Below are positions 30,707 through 34,944 of a stretch of DNA of 58,317 nt, in pieces; position 1 is the first letter of the stretch, and every line of letters starts with the position of its first letter. The position numbers and the translations under genes are program-made. The notes below the pieces were generated by a model that saw nothing but the letters and a program-made list of their open reading frames with translations, did not search any database and was not told where the DNA came from. The stretch comes from an uncultured Pelagibacteraceae bacterium (GTDB lineage: Bacteria; Pseudomonadota; Alphaproteobacteria; Pelagibacterales; Pelagibacteraceae): the NCBI GenBank assembly GCA_902516425.1, contig CABXYE010000004.1, positions 5,001 through 63,317 of the forward strand. The letters are read 5' to 3'.

Positions 30707-31367
30707 AATATTTGTTGCTTGTGATAGCATTAATATTTTAAAGATAAAAAAAATTATTAAAGAAACAGCTAATAAGGATCTTAAGATTGGATACAAATTT
30801 GGATTAGAATTTCTTAATTCCAAGAATGGAAGAAAATTTTTAGTAAATTTAAAAAACAAGACTACTTTCATAGATCTTAAACTTCATGATATTCCAAATA
30901 CTTGTGTATCAACAATAAAAGCTATTAAGGACTTAAAAGTCAATTATTTAACTATTCACATAAGTTCTGGCTTGGATAATCTAAAAGCATGTAAAAAAAT
31001 TTCGGGTAAAATTAAATTAATTGGAGTTACAATTCTTACCTCTTTAGACAATAAGTCTTTAAAAGAAATTGGTTTTGATAAAAAGGTAAAACAACTTGTT
31101 TTGCATCAAGCTAAATTAGCAAATAAAGCTAAATTAGATGCTATAGTTTGCAGTGCCCAAGAAGTAAATATAGTTAAAAAAGTATTTAAAAAAGAAATAA
31201 TAACACCTGGAATCCGATTTAATTCGAACTTAAACGATCAGAAAAGAGTCCTTAGTCCGAGACAAGCTTATCAAAATGGTAGTGATTGGTTAGTAATAGG
31301 AAGGCCCATTACTAAAGGCAATATAAAAAAAAATATTTCAGTATTAATCGATCATCTCAATAAATGA
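30693..31367 (+). CDS. pyrF: Orotidine 5'-phosphate decarboxylase
   Basis: A 224-residue enzyme for the last step of UMP synthesis. The catalytic DLKLHDIPNT motif (61-70) supplies the D-K-D charge network (D61, K63, D66), and the phosphate-binding end has VIGRPI. It sits between ihfB and trpF with overlaps on both sides (14 bp and ATGA), in the alphaproteobacterial order ihfB-pyrF-trpF-trpB-trpA. Confidence 0.95.
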   Translation: MKKNKIFVACDSINILKIKKIIKETANKDLKIGYKFGLEFLNSKNGRKFLVNLKNKTTFIDLKLHDIPNTCVSTIKAIKDLKVNYLTIHISSGLDNLKACKKISGKIKLIGVTILTSLDNKSLKEIGFDKKVKQLVLHQAKLANKAKLDAIVCSAQEVNIVKKVFKKEIITPGIRFNSNLNDQKRVLSPRQAYQNGSDWLVIGRPITKGNIKKNISVLIDHLNK

Positions 31368-31993
31368 CCCTCAAATTAAAAATCTGTGGGGTCTCAGACT
31401 TCAATACACTTGAGTACATAGTAAATCATAAGTATCCTCCGCATTTTATTGGATTTATAGTAAATTACCCAAAATCAAAAAGGTATATAAATACAAAAAA
31501 ACTAAAAAGACTATTTAATATCAATAAGAAAAAATCTTTATATGTTGCCGTTTTAGTTAATCCAGAAAAAAAGATTCTTGAGGAAATAAAAGATTTACCT
31601 TTTGATTATTATCAAATTTACAACTGTGATGCTGATAAAATTCAATCTATTAAAAAAACTTATAAAAAGAAAATTATAGTAGCTCTTACTATTGAAAATT
31701 ATCAGGATGTTCAAAATTATGAGCTGTACAAAAATGTATCTGATATTTATTTATTTGATAGCAAGGGATATGAAAAAAGTATGTCGTTCGATCACGATTT
31801 ATTAAGAAATATTCAATTTAACAAAGATGTTATGTTGGCTGGAAATATACAGATCAATGATGATCTTGAAAAATATAAGGAAATAGCCGATATTATTGAT
31901 ATATCTGGCGGATTAGAAACTTCTGGATTAAAAGATATTTCCAAAATAGAAATTTTCTTAAATAGGTTAAAAAATTTAAACAATGATACTTAA
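31364..31993 (+). CDS. trpF: Phosphoribosylanthranilate isomerase
   Basis: A 209-residue TIM barrel of tryptophan synthesis. The catalytic Cys lies in LKICGV (5-10); the general-acid Asp is probably in the LFDSKG stretch. The C-terminal phosphate loop reads DISGGLETSGLKD, whereas the usual form is DVSSGVE. The start overlaps pyrF by 4 bp (ATGA), and the end overlaps trpB by 11 bp. Part of trpF-trpB-trpA. Confidence 0.92.
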   Translation: MTLKLKICGVSDFNTLEYIVNHKYPPHFIGFIVNYPKSKRYINTKKLKRLFNINKKKSLYVAVLVNPEKKILEEIKDLPFDYYQIYNCDADKIQSIKKTYKKKIIVALTIENYQDVQNYELYKNVSDIYLFDSKGYEKSMSFDHDLLRNIQFNKDVMLAGNIQINDDLEKYKEIADIIDISGGLETSGLKDISKIEIFLNRLKNLNNDT

Positions 31994-33212
31994 AAAAAAT
32001 ATTCCCTTAATTGACCAACATGACAAAAATGGTTTTTGGGGAGGAAAATTTGGTGGCAGTTTTATCCCTGAGACACTTAAAAAACCAGTTGAAGATCTTA
32101 CAATTAAATTTGAAAAATTACGAAAAGACAAAAAATTTTTAAAAAAGAGAGACTTCTATTTTAAAAATTATATCGGTTCTCCTACGTCTTTCATAAAATT
32201 AGAAAAATTATCTAATCATTTAGGTGGTGCTCAAATTTGGGCAAAAGTAGTTTCAGAGGCAAATGGTGGTGCACATAAAATATATAATGCGACAGTTCAC
32301 GCTTTGATATGCAAAGCTATGGGTAAAAAATATATAGTTGGAGACACAGGAGCTGGCTACGCAGGTAAGATGTTAAGTATGGCTGCTAAAAAATTTAACC
32401 TTAAATGTAAAATTTTTATGGGCGCAAAGGATATTAAAAGACAAAAACCAAATTGTGATGCAATTAGAAAAAACGGAGCTGAAATAGTACCAGTATACTC
32501 TGGTAGTCAAACTTTAGTTGATGCGGTAAGCGAGTGTATGAGATATTGGGTCTCAAATTGTGAAAAATGTCATATGGCAGTTGGGAGCACAGTTGGCCCG
32601 AATATATTTGTGAAAATTTGCGGATGGTCAACTTCTCAAATATCTAGAGAATTAAAAGAGCAGTTAAAAAGAGAATTTAAAAAGATTCCAAATAAAATAA
32701 AACTTATTAACTGTGTTGGAGGAGGAAGTTCAGCTTATGGTTTCTGGAGTGAATTTATAGATTATGACAAAAAACAAATTGAGTTAATAGGAGTAGAAGC
32801 AGGAGGGCCAAAAAAATCAAAACTTCATGCAGCTCCTTTGAGTAGAAATGCAAAAATTGGAATTTTACATGGAGCCGCATCTTATGTATGTCAGAATAAA
32901 GAAGGACAAATTCATGAAACAGAGTCTATCAGCGCAGGTTTAGATTATCCTGGTGTCAGTCCAATTCATTGTTTTTTAAAAGATACTAAAAGAGCAAGAT
33001 ATACTTATGCAACTGATGAGGAGGCTTTAAACGCATTTAAATTAGTTACTAAATTTGAAAAATTAAATCCTAGTCTTGAACCAAGCCATGCTTTTGCAGA
33101 AGCTATTAAAATTGCACCTAAATTAAGTAAAGATACAGTTTGTATTGTTAATTCATGCGGTGATGCAAAAAAAGATAGGGATATTCTAATAGAAAGATTG
33201 GGAAAATATTAA
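31983..33212 (+). CDS. trpB: Tryptophan synthase beta chain, divergent
   Basis: A 409-residue PLP enzyme joining indole and serine. It aligns along the whole length of TrpB: GGAHK with the PLP Lys (K99), MGAKD, GGGSS (247-250) and ISAGLDYPGV. Several near-invariant residues differ: ETGAGQHG is DTGAGYAG (121-128), so catalytic Glu109 (Salmonella numbering) is Asp and Gln114/His115 are Tyr/Ala. The C-terminal SGRGDKD becomes CGDAKKD (Ser377 to Cys392), and Lys167 is Val179. Context between trpF and trpA supports TrpB; catalytic consequences are inference. Confidence 0.88.
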   Translation: MILKKNIPLIDQHDKNGFWGGKFGGSFIPETLKKPVEDLTIKFEKLRKDKKFLKKRDFYFKNYIGSPTSFIKLEKLSNHLGGAQIWAKVVSEANGGAHKIYNATVHALICKAMGKKYIVGDTGAGYAGKMLSMAAKKFNLKCKIFMGAKDIKRQKPNCDAIRKNGAEIVPVYSGSQTLVDAVSECMRYWVSNCEKCHMAVGSTVGPNIFVKICGWSTSQISRELKEQLKREFKKIPNKIKLINCVGGGSSAYGFWSEFIDYDKKQIELIGVEAGGPKKSKLHAAPLSRNAKIGILHGAASYVCQNKEGQIHETESISAGLDYPGVSPIHCFLKDTKRARYTYATDEEALNAFKLVTKFEKLNPSLEPSHAFAEAIKIAPKLSKDTVCIVNSCGDAKKDRDILIERLGKY

Positions 33213-34015
33213 TGGATGAGTCTTTAATCAACCGGGCGTTTAAAATAGCCAAGAGTGAAGATAGGCCTGCTCTTTTAACCTACACAGTTGCAGGAGATAA
33301 TAACAAAAGAAAATCGCTGGAAATTTTAAAATCAATATCCAAATATGCTGATATTTGTGAATTAGGTTTTCCACATAACACTCCAATCGCTGATGGAGGT
33401 CAGATACAGACTAGTTCTTATCGTGCCATAAAAAACGGAATAAAAATAAATGATGTGTTTTCTATCGTGAGTGAATTTAAAAAAGCTAAAAAAAATAAAC
33501 CAGTTATCTTGATGGGCTACTATAATATGATCTATCAATATAATGAAAATAGATTTATTGCAAAATGCAAAAAGTCAAAAGTTGATGGTTTAATAGTTGT
33601 TGATTTACCCTATCCAGAGAATAAATCTTTTGCCTTAAAATGTAAAAAAAACAAAATCAATTTCATTCAGCTTATTGCACCTACAACTTCAAAATTGAGA
33701 TTAAAAAAAATTATAAGAGATTCCCATGATATGATTTATTACATTAGTATGTTATCTACTACAGGTGGAAAGTTAAAAGTTTCTCCAAAAAAGATAATTC
33801 AGGAATATCAAAAAATAAAAAAATTAGATAGATTCAAAAAAGTTGTAATTGGATTCGGTATCACAGAAAAAACCATAAAATTGCTTAAAAGTGCTGATGG
33901 ATTGGTTGTTGGAAGCGCAATTTGTAAGGAAATTACTAAATCATTAGAGAAAAGACAAAATGCTGTCACAAAGGTTACTAATGTAGTAAGGAAGTTAAAA
34001 GATCAAATAAGATGA
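33212..34015 (+). CDS. trpA: Tryptophan synthase alpha chain, divergent
   Basis: A 267-residue TIM barrel that splits indole-3-glycerol phosphate to feed indole to TrpB. Both catalytic acids are present: Glu50 in CELGFP and Asp61 in IADGG (E. coli E49, D60). The active-site loop PFSDP reads PHNTP, so Asp56, the partner of TrpB Lys167 in the E. coli/Salmonella complex, is Thr57. Loop 6 reads STTGGK. Its first base overlaps the trpB stop, and its end overlaps accD (ATGA), the usual trpB-trpA-accD-folC order. Confidence 0.9.
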   Translation: MDESLINRAFKIAKSEDRPALLTYTVAGDNNKRKSLEILKSISKYADICELGFPHNTPIADGGQIQTSSYRAIKNGIKINDVFSIVSEFKKAKKNKPVILMGYYNMIYQYNENRFIAKCKKSKVDGLIVVDLPYPENKSFALKCKKNKINFIQLIAPTTSKLRLKKIIRDSHDMIYYISMLSTTGGKLKVSPKKIIQEYQKIKKLDRFKKVVIGFGITEKTIKLLKSADGLVVGSAICKEITKSLEKRQNAVTKVTNVVRKLKDQIR

Positions 34016-34944
34016 ACTGGATTACTAAAATAATTAAAGCAAGTGAAAAAATCAAAACTGCTATACACAAAAGAGCTTCGAAAGAAGATATTGCTAACAG
34101 TGATTGGACATCATGTTGTAAGGGTCCAATTTTAAAAAAAGACTTAGAACAAAATCTTTGGGTTTGTCCTGATTGCAATAAACATCATAGAATTAAACCA
34201 AAACAAAGATTTGATATTTTTTTTGGAAAAAATAATTATGAGATTTTTAAAACACCAATTCCAAAAGATGATCCTTTAGATTGGACTGACTCAAAATCAT
34301 ATAAAGACAGACTAAAAAGTGCTAGAAAAAAAACTGGAATGGATTGTGGGATGATGGTTGTTGCTGGAACAATTAATAATATCAAAATCACTGCAGTAGC
34401 ATCTGATTTTGAATTTTTAGGAGCCTCAATGGCAGCTGCTGAAGGAGAAGCTTTTTTATATGGCATTCAACATGCAATAGAAAACAAAACGCCATTTGTT
34501 TGTTTTAGTTCTGGTGGTGGCATGAGAATGATGGAAAGCCTCATTTCTTTATCTCAAATGACAAGAACTACAATAGCTATAAATGAACTAAAAAAAAATA
34601 ATCTTCCATATTTAGTCTGTTTAACAGATCCAACAGCAGGTGGAATAACAGCTTCATATGCAATGTTAGGAGATTTGCATATCGCAGAGTCTGATCATGC
34701 TCTTATAGCTTTTGCAGGCGCGCGTGTTATCGAGGGAACAGTTAAAGAGAGTCTACCTGAAAATTTTCAAAAAAGCTCCTATGTTCAAAAAACTGGATTT
34801 GTAGACTTAATTTTAAATAGAACAGATCTTCGAGAAAAAATCGGTATGCTAATATCAATTTTATTAAATAAAGATCCTGTTATAAGATCTGAGGAAAATG
34901 AAACTTCAGAAAATTCTCAATCACTTACAAAAGCTGCATCCTAA
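34012..34944 (+). CDS. accD: Acetyl-CoA carboxylase carboxyltransferase subunit beta
   Basis: A 310-residue partner of AccA. The crotonase-like core is intact (FSSGGGMRMMES, DPTAGGITASYAM, GARVIEGT). The N-terminal zinc ribbon is unusual: where relatives have C-x2-C, this protein has adjacent Cys residues in WTSCCKGP, while the second pair CPDC is normal. Metal binding may be altered. The end overlaps folC by 47 bp, and the start overlaps trpA by 4 bp. Confidence 0.94.
   Translation: MNWITKIIKASEKIKTAIHKRASKEDIANSDWTSCCKGPILKKDLEQNLWVCPDCNKHHRIKPKQRFDIFFGKNNYEIFKTPIPKDDPLDWTDSKSYKDRLKSARKKTGMDCGMMVVAGTINNIKITAVASDFEFLGASMAAAEGEAFLYGIQHAIENKTPFVCFSSGGGMRMMESLISLSQMTRTTIAINELKKNNLPYLVCLTDPTAGGITASYAMLGDLHIAESDHALIAFAGARVIEGTVKESLPENFQKSSYVQKTGFVDLILNRTDLREKIGMLISILLNKDPVIRSEENETSENSQSLTKAAS

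Follow-up and report, generated by a model that had tools for sequence, protein, structure and literature searches.

Allostery and substrate channelling have their textbook example in tryptophan synthase, a picture built on a few enzymes, in which a salt bridge joins Lys167 of the beta subunit to Asp56 of the alpha subunit. The locus studied here resembles the TrpB1/TrpA complexes of Salmonella, E. coli and Pyrococcus in family, operon context and alpha-beta pairing, as well as in Lys87, Arg141, Asp305, Glu350 and alpha Glu49 and Asp60; unlike them, the type described here (the focal, or "V", type) deviates in its majority residue at 26 of the 81 beta columns that are invariant in 51 other proteobacterial TrpBs, including Glu109, His115, Asn89, Asn236 and Arg379-Asp381, and the Lys167/Asp56 charge pair is missing from it. 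In the available sections of earlier work, Tyr279 is linked to both Lys167 and Asp56, the bridge between these two going unstated (PMC8187860), Glu109 touches the indole nucleophile and Gln114Ala by itself shifts the intermediates of the Salmonella enzyme (PMC9512447); according to the title of Brzovic et al. 1992, cited in PMC9512447, Asp in place of Glu109 alters substrate specificity in Salmonella. The mutual activation of the Salmonella subunits amounts to about 30-fold for alpha and 10-fold for beta (PMC9512447). The TrpB2 or TrpB-like enzymes (TIGR01415, NF009057) are PLP-fold relatives of our TrpB.

As for SAR11 itself, Kagan et al. 2008 (PMC2395257), in the portion available, described a distinct SAR11 trpB_1 cluster that includes HTCC1062 and is separate from other trpB_1; the trpB studied here is very probably a member of it. 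The text of that paper lacks the word "residue" and uses "active site" a single time, in a general sense, and its available portion mentions neither the salt bridge nor alternative trpBA types at the same locus. Gene sweeps and hypervariable-region exchange in SAR11 (PMC12374537, PMC2217521) are similar in that gene units are exchanged by homologous recombination, but the exchanged units in the available parts of these papers are nitrate reductase and cell-surface genes, and tryptophan, trpB or trp are absent from the main texts; a third SAR11 hotspot, of other metabolic functions, is itemised in a supplement (PMC12374537, as far as available).

Our preferred reading, with a probability of about 82% for its three parts jointly, is that the locus encodes the SAR11 cell's ordinary tryptophan synthase in role, that its design is SAR11-specific within the TrpB1 family, and that SAR11 genomes exchange the pair.

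The locus and its altered residues

The window, i.e., the whole stretch of 58,317 nt that was analysed, carries trpB at 31983..33212 (409 aa; phmmer 7.6e-99 to a TrpB structure) and trpA at 33212..34015 (267 aa; PF00290, and 207.1 bits against TIGR00262 for a cut-off of 102.35), the stop of the first overlapping the start of the second; both genes lie exactly where an earlier sequence-only reading had placed them. The left neighbour is trpF (31364..31993, PF00697) and the right neighbour, at 34012..34944, is a gene that we take by recognition to be accD and that marks the abrupt boundary of the exchanged unit on its right side. All features given here are on the + strand, and trpB sits within the usual SAR11 gene order trpFBA-accD-folC.

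Residues are numbered after E. coli TrpB and TrpA, the alignment reference, whose numbering we took as equal to that of Salmonella. The comparison set (n = 51) consists of E. coli, the 30 top-scoring loci and 20 chosen from lower ranks, a few of its members being second copies of one genome; at 10 of the 51 loci, no TrpA was found in the stretch retrieved. The 118 focal-type loci amount to 113 distinct TrpB cores, five pairs being an identical sequence fetched twice. L001, L122-L127 (duplicates), L003 (another enzyme), L040 and L140 (split gene) were left out of the residue counts, L040 being itself a focal-type locus.

The earlier reading had proposed that the beta active site is altered around a conserved catalytic core, and the alignment to E. 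coli confirms it. Window TrpB carries R77V, N89Y (Tyr101, 32283..32285), E109D (Asp121, 32343..32345), Q114Y and H115A (Tyr126-Ala127, 32358..32363), K167V (Val179, 32517..32519; the beta side of the charge pair), N236S (Ser250, 32730..32732, in the phosphate loop GGGSN), S377C, R379D, G380A and D381K; the last four rewrite the start of SGRGDKD, with Cys-Gly-Asp-Ala-Lys at Ser377-Gly-Arg-Gly-Asp381 (33156..33170). Catalytic Lys87 (Lys99, 32277..32279), Arg141 (Arg153, 32439..32441), its partner Asp305 (Asp321, 32943..32945) and Glu350 (Glu366, 33078..33080) are unchanged. TrpA carries D56T (Thr57, 33380..33382; the alpha side of the pair), F54H and G181S (Ser182, 33755..33757, in mobile loop L6), and keeps Tyr175 and the catalytic acids Glu49 (Glu50, 33359..33361) and Asp60 (Asp61, 33392..33394).

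Glu109, His115, Asn89, Asn236, Arg77, Arg379, Gly380 and Asp381 are each found in 51/51 comparison TrpBs, while position 114 is Gln in 44 and Met in 7, and position 167 is Lys in 49 and Arg in 2. Position 377 is Ser in 38 and Cys in 13, so that the Cys for Ser377 reported earlier is a true substitution and yet an ordinary one. In the focal type, Tyr89, Asp109, Tyr114, Ala115, Val167 and Ser236 are each present at 118/118 loci; at alpha 181, Ser in 117/117 stands against Gly in 41/41 comparison TrpAs, and deeper members have any of Ser, Asn and Gly. Among lower-scoring or fragmentary matches from 19 further genomes, Asp109 and Val167 are kept wherever covered and positions 114-115 vary (Tyr-Ala, Tyr-Asn, Met-Asn, Met-Phe); Asp109, Val167 and Ser236 are present in all focal-type sequences examined, where the position is covered. 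Leaving out each comparison TrpB in turn gave at most 3 lone deviations at invariant columns per protein, and the divergence of the focal type at these columns is beyond chance. The rewritten active site and subunit contact matter because the relatives compared keep these residues almost invariably.

Could the changes simply mean that a small genome is decaying or that selection on the pair has relaxed? The genome is indeed reduced and AT-rich, with a GC3 of 0.17 for trpB, but this value lies inside the range of the neighbouring genes (0.15-0.23), Asp109, Ala115, Tyr89, Ser236 and others are fixed across the 113 distinct sequences, and the sole internal stop among the matches listed is one TGA in G656; we regard decay as highly improbable.

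Copy number, role and class of the enzyme

The TrpB of the window scores 383.6 bits against TIGR00263, just below the equivalog cut-off of 392.45; among the other SAR11 types, M (406.5) and H (406.6) are above it and L (314.3) is below. Its best matches are LBCA and "beta chain 1" structures (1e-95 or better), "beta chain 2" structures matching at about 3e-13 only, and it has the adjacent trpA, the catalytic Lys87 and the Asp305 of TrpB1 without the Glu109. Membership in TrpB2 was considered and rejected (88 bits against TIGR01415, cut-off 518.85; 86 against NF009057, cut-off 366).

The focal type is the commonest TrpB type among the SAR11 genomes searched. Of the 257 genomes of the order, 218 have a match with E < 1e-160, part of which were covered by the residue-by-residue check, and all 80 named loci among the best 80 of 569 relatives belong to Pelagibacter, Pelagibacteraceae or Pelagibacterales. 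An exact search of 385 class genomes for the DNA pattern of GDTGAGYAG found this focal motif in 5 (the genome of the window and four others of the same family) and none outside SAR11. The focal residues are also present in two single-contig SAR11 genomes, G446 and G447, which are presumably those of HTCC1062 and HTCC7211.

A second canonical trpAB elsewhere would have made this pair a paralogue with another role. In the window's own genome, our search returned a single match for TrpA and a single full-length one for TrpB; this assembly is 71% complete and so does not directly exclude a copy in its missing part. A neofunctionalised paralogue, using another donor or nucleophile and not acting as the cell's tryptophan synthase, would fit the many altered residues that are otherwise invariant, and the fact that the change at Glu109 concerns the very residue contacting the indole nucleophile and altering specificity in Salmonella (PMC9512447, in part, and the 1992 title). 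Against it, a PLP-fold family search of 17 SAR11 genomes found a single TrpB in each (12 of the focal type) and an IGPS match in all 17, although four other SAR11 genomes do carry an extra, weakly matching TrpB-like gene; the trpFBA locus is standard; and the cultured strains HTCC1062 and HTCC7211 grow in artificial seawater with pyruvate, glycine, methionine and vitamins, tryptophan being unlisted in the available description of the medium (PMC8437039). We find a paralogue very unlikely. On these genetic grounds, the focal-type enzyme would produce the tryptophan of the cell.

The alpha-beta charge pair and coupling

The loss of Lys167 and Asp56 together, which the sequence-only reading had pointed out, is reproduced well beyond the window: beta 167 is Lys or Arg exactly when alpha 56 is Asp or Glu in 175/175 scorable pairs (one further pair has a gap), and additional alpha/beta pairs checked for matched charge state agree in 5/5 and 17/17 cases. 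One has to keep in mind that the tree of types is compatible with just one or two losses, so that this agreement does not represent many independent events. Repeated independent loss was dropped as a proposal: a clade of V+M+571+L is unrejected on TrpB (p-AU 0.668) and present on TrpA.

Most likely, in our view, the pair is a functional enzyme of the TrpB1 family in which the alpha-beta coupling has changed. TrpA would still produce indole and TrpB would join it to the serine-derived aminoacrylate; Asp109, a shorter carboxylate, would serve the indole N1 in place of Glu109; the hydrogen bonds that link Gln114 to Asn145/Arg148 would be replaced, Arg148 being lost too; and the Asp56/Lys167 pair would no longer be used in alpha-beta signalling, so that coupling may be weaker or routed elsewhere. 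With Arg141 and Asp305, the intra-beta closure residues, intact, the allosteric machinery would be partly retained. The re-tuned complex suggested earlier, in which allostery or kinetics would differ, is consistent with these residues, and changed coupling, taken alone, seems to us probable. An AlphaFold2 model built from 8 sequences was too poor for use (mean pLDDT 66.5).

The coupling part alone is contested by the idea of a working synthase whose kinetics and allostery are practically unchanged, with substitutions that offset one another and a charge pair whose loss is silent. The retention of Arg141, Asp305, Lys87, Glu350 and alpha Glu49 and Asp60 speaks for it, as does the variability already seen at position 114 (7 Met in 51); Glu109, His115, Asn89 and Asn236 are nevertheless 51/51 elsewhere, and the Gln114Ala change alone is enough to shift intermediates in Salmonella (PMC9512447, available part). 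We hold such silent compensation to be rather unlikely.

Probable exchange of trpBA types between SAR11 genomes

At least four deeply divergent trpBA types occur at a single locus in SAR11 and appear to be exchanged with both genes together, an observation that is new within the literature searched. TrpB identity is just 35-36% between genomes whose AccD are 93-97% identical; between L131 and L103, for example, identity is 91% for RpsA, 87% for PyrF, 57% for TrpF, 36% for TrpB, 32% for TrpA, 97% for AccD and 96% for FolC, and the DNA identity profile jumps abruptly at the trpA/accD junction, where we place the breakpoint. Counted on gene trees of 92 loci (possible minimum 3, maximum 11; eight sister-family loci left out), type changes number 11 for rpsA, 10 for pyrF, 6 for trpF, 3 for TrpB, 3 for TrpA, 10 for accD and 10 for folC. 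By this count (6 against 3 for TrpB) and by the DNA profile, trpF travels partly with trpBA. TrpA and TrpB types are concordant: 7 label changes, the lowest possible number, suffice on both trees, several deep joins of which are flagged for long branches.

The flanking genes reject a single H clade (p-AU 0.0012) and likewise a single L clade (5e-96). Their tree, for which every one of the 18 non-V loci and 18 of the 82 V loci were used, requires 14 type changes for a shuffled-label mean of 16.9, a value as low being reached in 3/200 shuffles, and types are less scattered on it than random labels, a point against exchange; this tree is a mixture, because the flanks themselves recombine. Since numerous SAR11 genomes were assembled from single cells or metagenomes, types H, N and L could be assembly chimaeras or contaminants, with no exchange at all, but the H type is found in G012 (one contig of 1,343,202 bases, 100% complete) and in six other genomes, and 18/18 non-V loci carry pyrF, trpF, accD and folC on the same fetched stretch, which leaves artefact a very slim chance.

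Viral scans confirmed no virus or phage with a focal, H or L type; the 19 matching records of the phage collection are all below 60% identity, the five listed being at 40.9-43.1%. Nor was an H-type donor seen among 190 class genomes of other alphaproteobacteria, since none of the 16 that match at E <= 1e-115 exceeds 51% identity.

The co-adapted trpBA pair would move between SAR11 genomes via homologous recombination in the flanking genes, the focal pair taking turns at one locus with other, deeply divergent pairs. More tentatively, it is possible that SAR11 maintains a standing set of at least four deeply distinct, alternative alpha-beta designs that compete for one locus and replace each other there in co-adapted pairs, since selection would favour variety in a housekeeping enzyme; such selection might act through niche-specific kinetics, or through an enemy (phage, toxin or antimetabolite) recognising the common form. 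Several designs of that set would lack residues thought indispensable.

SAR11, among the commonest bacterial groups of the ocean, runs a tryptophan synthase without several supposedly fixed residues. The order offers a natural series (the C, N/H, L, M and V types) that varies the catalytic acid, the carboxylate loop and the allosteric pair, by which the requirements for coupling become testable, and the pairwise exchange of diverged trpBA in one locus raises the separate question of what would make a core enzyme polymorphic.

Locus and family of the focal enzyme

The window belongs to SAR11: among relatives in named genomes, the best 80 of 569 are without exception (80/80) titled Pelagibacter, Pelagibacteraceae or Pelagibacterales. 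A family search bore out the identities of TrpF, TrpB and TrpA in the window; the remaining neighbour genes were named by recognition. Starts and stops overlap at three junctions (trpF/trpB, trpB/trpA and trpA/accD), which suggests translational coupling across trpF, trpB, trpA and accD. The window TrpB matched TrpB1 structures in a structure sequence search (best E 7.6e-99) and scored 383.6 bits against TIGR00263, slightly under the curated cut-off of 392.45. This cut-off is exceeded by a TrpB in 145 of 150 proteobacterial genomes surveyed, the window's own genome being counted in, with 545–658 bits among the matches listed; weaker matches, outside those listed, come from genomes G756 and G768.

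Across the order, 239 of 257 genomes have a match at E ≤ 1e-30, 218 of these at E below 1e-160, while the exact GDTGAGYAG pattern occurs in 5 of the 385 genomes of the class, all within the window's own family. In 7 of 149 near-complete SAR11 genomes (G492, G515, G574, G575, G578, G602 and G520), no TrpB was found at E ≤ 1e-30 or, with the TrpB profile, at 1e-10; either contigs are missing or these are true tryptophan auxotrophs. A separate SAR11 trpB_1 cluster was already described by Kagan et al. 2008 (PMC2395257), who report a single copy in HTCC1062, at the same locus, and argue that the gene has to be functional; in the text of that article, “residue” is absent and “active site” appears once, in a general sense only.

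Several trpBA types at the SAR11 trp locus

SAR11 holds several trpBA, all at the same locus, and not one. Type C is canonical, and the TrpB tree places it beside another member of the class, at support 93. On that tree, N and H form one clade and V (the focal type), M and G571 another; stem lengths, in changes per column, are 1.69 for the latter clade and 3.05 for L. The H-N and M-G571 joins are flagged as long-branch. All the non-canonical types may form a single clade (support 73, not starred). The TrpA tree, built from the 84 of 94 rows that have a TrpA, gives the same types as TrpB; V alone is not a clade there, the clade being V with M and G571. Comparing fetched loci L128–L135 with L042–L121, we observed at least four deeply diverged types alternating at the locus, trpB and trpA moving as a pair.

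Judged from sequence, the H- and N-type TrpBs look as odd as the focal type. In H (L035, L036, L128–L132) and N (L034, L136, L137), Glu109 is retained, Asp305 is replaced (Gln/Thr or Asn), and Gly259 and Gly261 both align to gaps. In TrpA of the H type, Glu takes the place of Asp60.

A flank tree of PyrF, TrpF, AccD and FolC from 36 loci (all 18 non-V and 18 of the 82 V) scatters the types, with 14 changes versus a minimum of 6, and rejects a single clade for H and also for L; random labels on this tree scatter more (mean 16.9; 14 or fewer in 3 of 200). On separate trees of each gene, from 92 loci (87 for rpsA) and with a possible range of 3 to 11, type changes were 11 for rpsA, 10 for pyrF, 6 for trpF, 3 each for TrpB and TrpA, and 10 each for accD and folC. 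Between L131 (H) and L103 (V), identity is 97% for AccD, 96% for FolC and 91% for RpsA, but 36% for TrpB and 32% for TrpA, a contrast repeated in L132/L072 and L130/L049. Identity changes abruptly at the trpA/accD junction, the right edge of the exchanged unit; at the left edge it drops inside trpF. Viral scans confirmed no phage carriage of the focal, H or L type, and a search of alphaproteobacterial genomes showed no outside donor of the H type.

SAR11 genomes are well known to recombine extensively (PMC7542561, PMC12374537). In the freely available literature on SAR11/Pelagibacter tryptophan synthase, trpB and tryptophan biosynthesis, no report of trpBA exchange was found; three papers on variation in SAR11 have no “tryptophan”, trpB or trp in their main texts, and one of them refers to its supplement for a hotspot with further metabolic genes. 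Compared with the four remaining H-type loci, which share their genus, L036, L128 and L129 are only about 30% identical in FolC and 44–69% in AccD; being so diverged, they suggest that other genes of the region may also exist in deep alternative forms.

Altered and retained residues

Alignment to E. coli TrpBA, the numbering reference, confirmed every substitution named in the sequence-only reading, although Ser377Cys is unremarkable, Cys being found in 13 of 51 comparison TrpBs from other proteobacteria. Glu109, His115, Asn89, Asn236, Arg77, Arg379, Gly380 and Asp381 are present in all 51 and all substituted in the window TrpB. Over the 81 columns invariant across this set, the focal majority residue deviates at 26; in a leave-one-out count, each comparison TrpB deviates from the other 50 at no more than 3 such columns. 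The other SAR11 types deviate at 0 (C), 13 (N), 19 (H), 24 (M), 26 (L) and 26 (G571). TrpB Lys87, Arg141, Asp305 and Glu350 and alpha Glu49, Asp60 and Tyr175 are intact in the focal type. Lower-scoring or fragmentary matches from 19 further genomes retain Asp109, Val167 and Ser236 wherever covered, positions 114-115 being variable.

When the enzyme is closed, Gln114 is described as bonding Asn145 and Arg148 (PMC9512447). The main V type has lost both Gln114 and Arg148 (position 148 is Ala/Ser in 118/118), whereas Arg148 is retained in M and G571, where residue 114 is Met; this suggests stepwise rebuilding of the region.

Also claimed from the sequence was a matched loss of beta Lys167 and alpha Asp56, and this held, with no mixed pair among all those scored. 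In Salmonella the two are joined by a salt bridge. Beta167 Lys/Arg accompanies alpha56 Asp/Glu in 41/41 comparison pairs and in 13/13 of types H, N and C; Val/Leu accompanies Thr/Ala/Cys in 121/121 scorable pairs of V, L, M and G571 (one additional V pair is gapped there), and 5 extra pairs and 17 scorable ones from additional genomes are concordant. The trees require two losses of the charge pair on TrpB and one on TrpA; a topology test did not reject a single loss on the TrpB tree.

In the focal enzyme, TrpA would cleave indole-glycerol phosphate with its usual acids, and TrpB would form the aminoacrylate on Lys99 (Lys87) and couple indole, whose N1 would be stabilised by Asp121 standing in for Glu109. 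Since the same exchange alters specificity and activity in Salmonella (Brzovic et al. 1992, by its title as cited in PMC9512447), the remaining focal substitutions may compensate for it. Closure within beta via Arg153-Asp321 is likely retained, and the alpha-beta signal through Asp56-Lys167 would be absent. Decay was also considered; the sequence argues instead for a constrained, altered design.

Probable role as the cell's tryptophan synthase

A second trpB, proposed as a check on the first reading, was sought in the window's own genome, and this 71% complete assembly gave one full-length TrpB match, one TrpA match and one IGPS. Among 17 SAR11 genomes (16 more than 90% complete, 12 of focal type), each has three or four PALP-fold enzymes, exactly one of them a TrpB, and an IGPS. 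In the one-contig genome G570, trpC, the IGPS gene, lies in two overlapping pieces (C1:930231-930997), from either a frameshift or a sequencing error.

An extra TrpB-like gene was seen in 4 of 36 SAR11 genomes searched (contigs G612:C14, G024:C7, G583:C14 and G631:C3), so an additional TrpB relative is possible within the group. These genes (454–459 aa frame, 145–153 bits on the TrpB profile) are, at a guess, TrpB2-like; in three of the four genomes the main TrpB is non-V, and G024 has no other TrpB. The V-type genome G045 has a comparable weak second match, on contig C8.

The focal residues are present in G446 and G447, which are probably the genomes of HTCC1062 and HTCC7211. The growth medium used for these two strains was artificial seawater supplemented with pyruvate, glycine, methionine and vitamins (PMC8437039). 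Given the single TrpB found alongside an IGPS, the medium of the cultured strains and the residues of their probable genomes, the focal variant very probably synthesises tryptophan in vivo.
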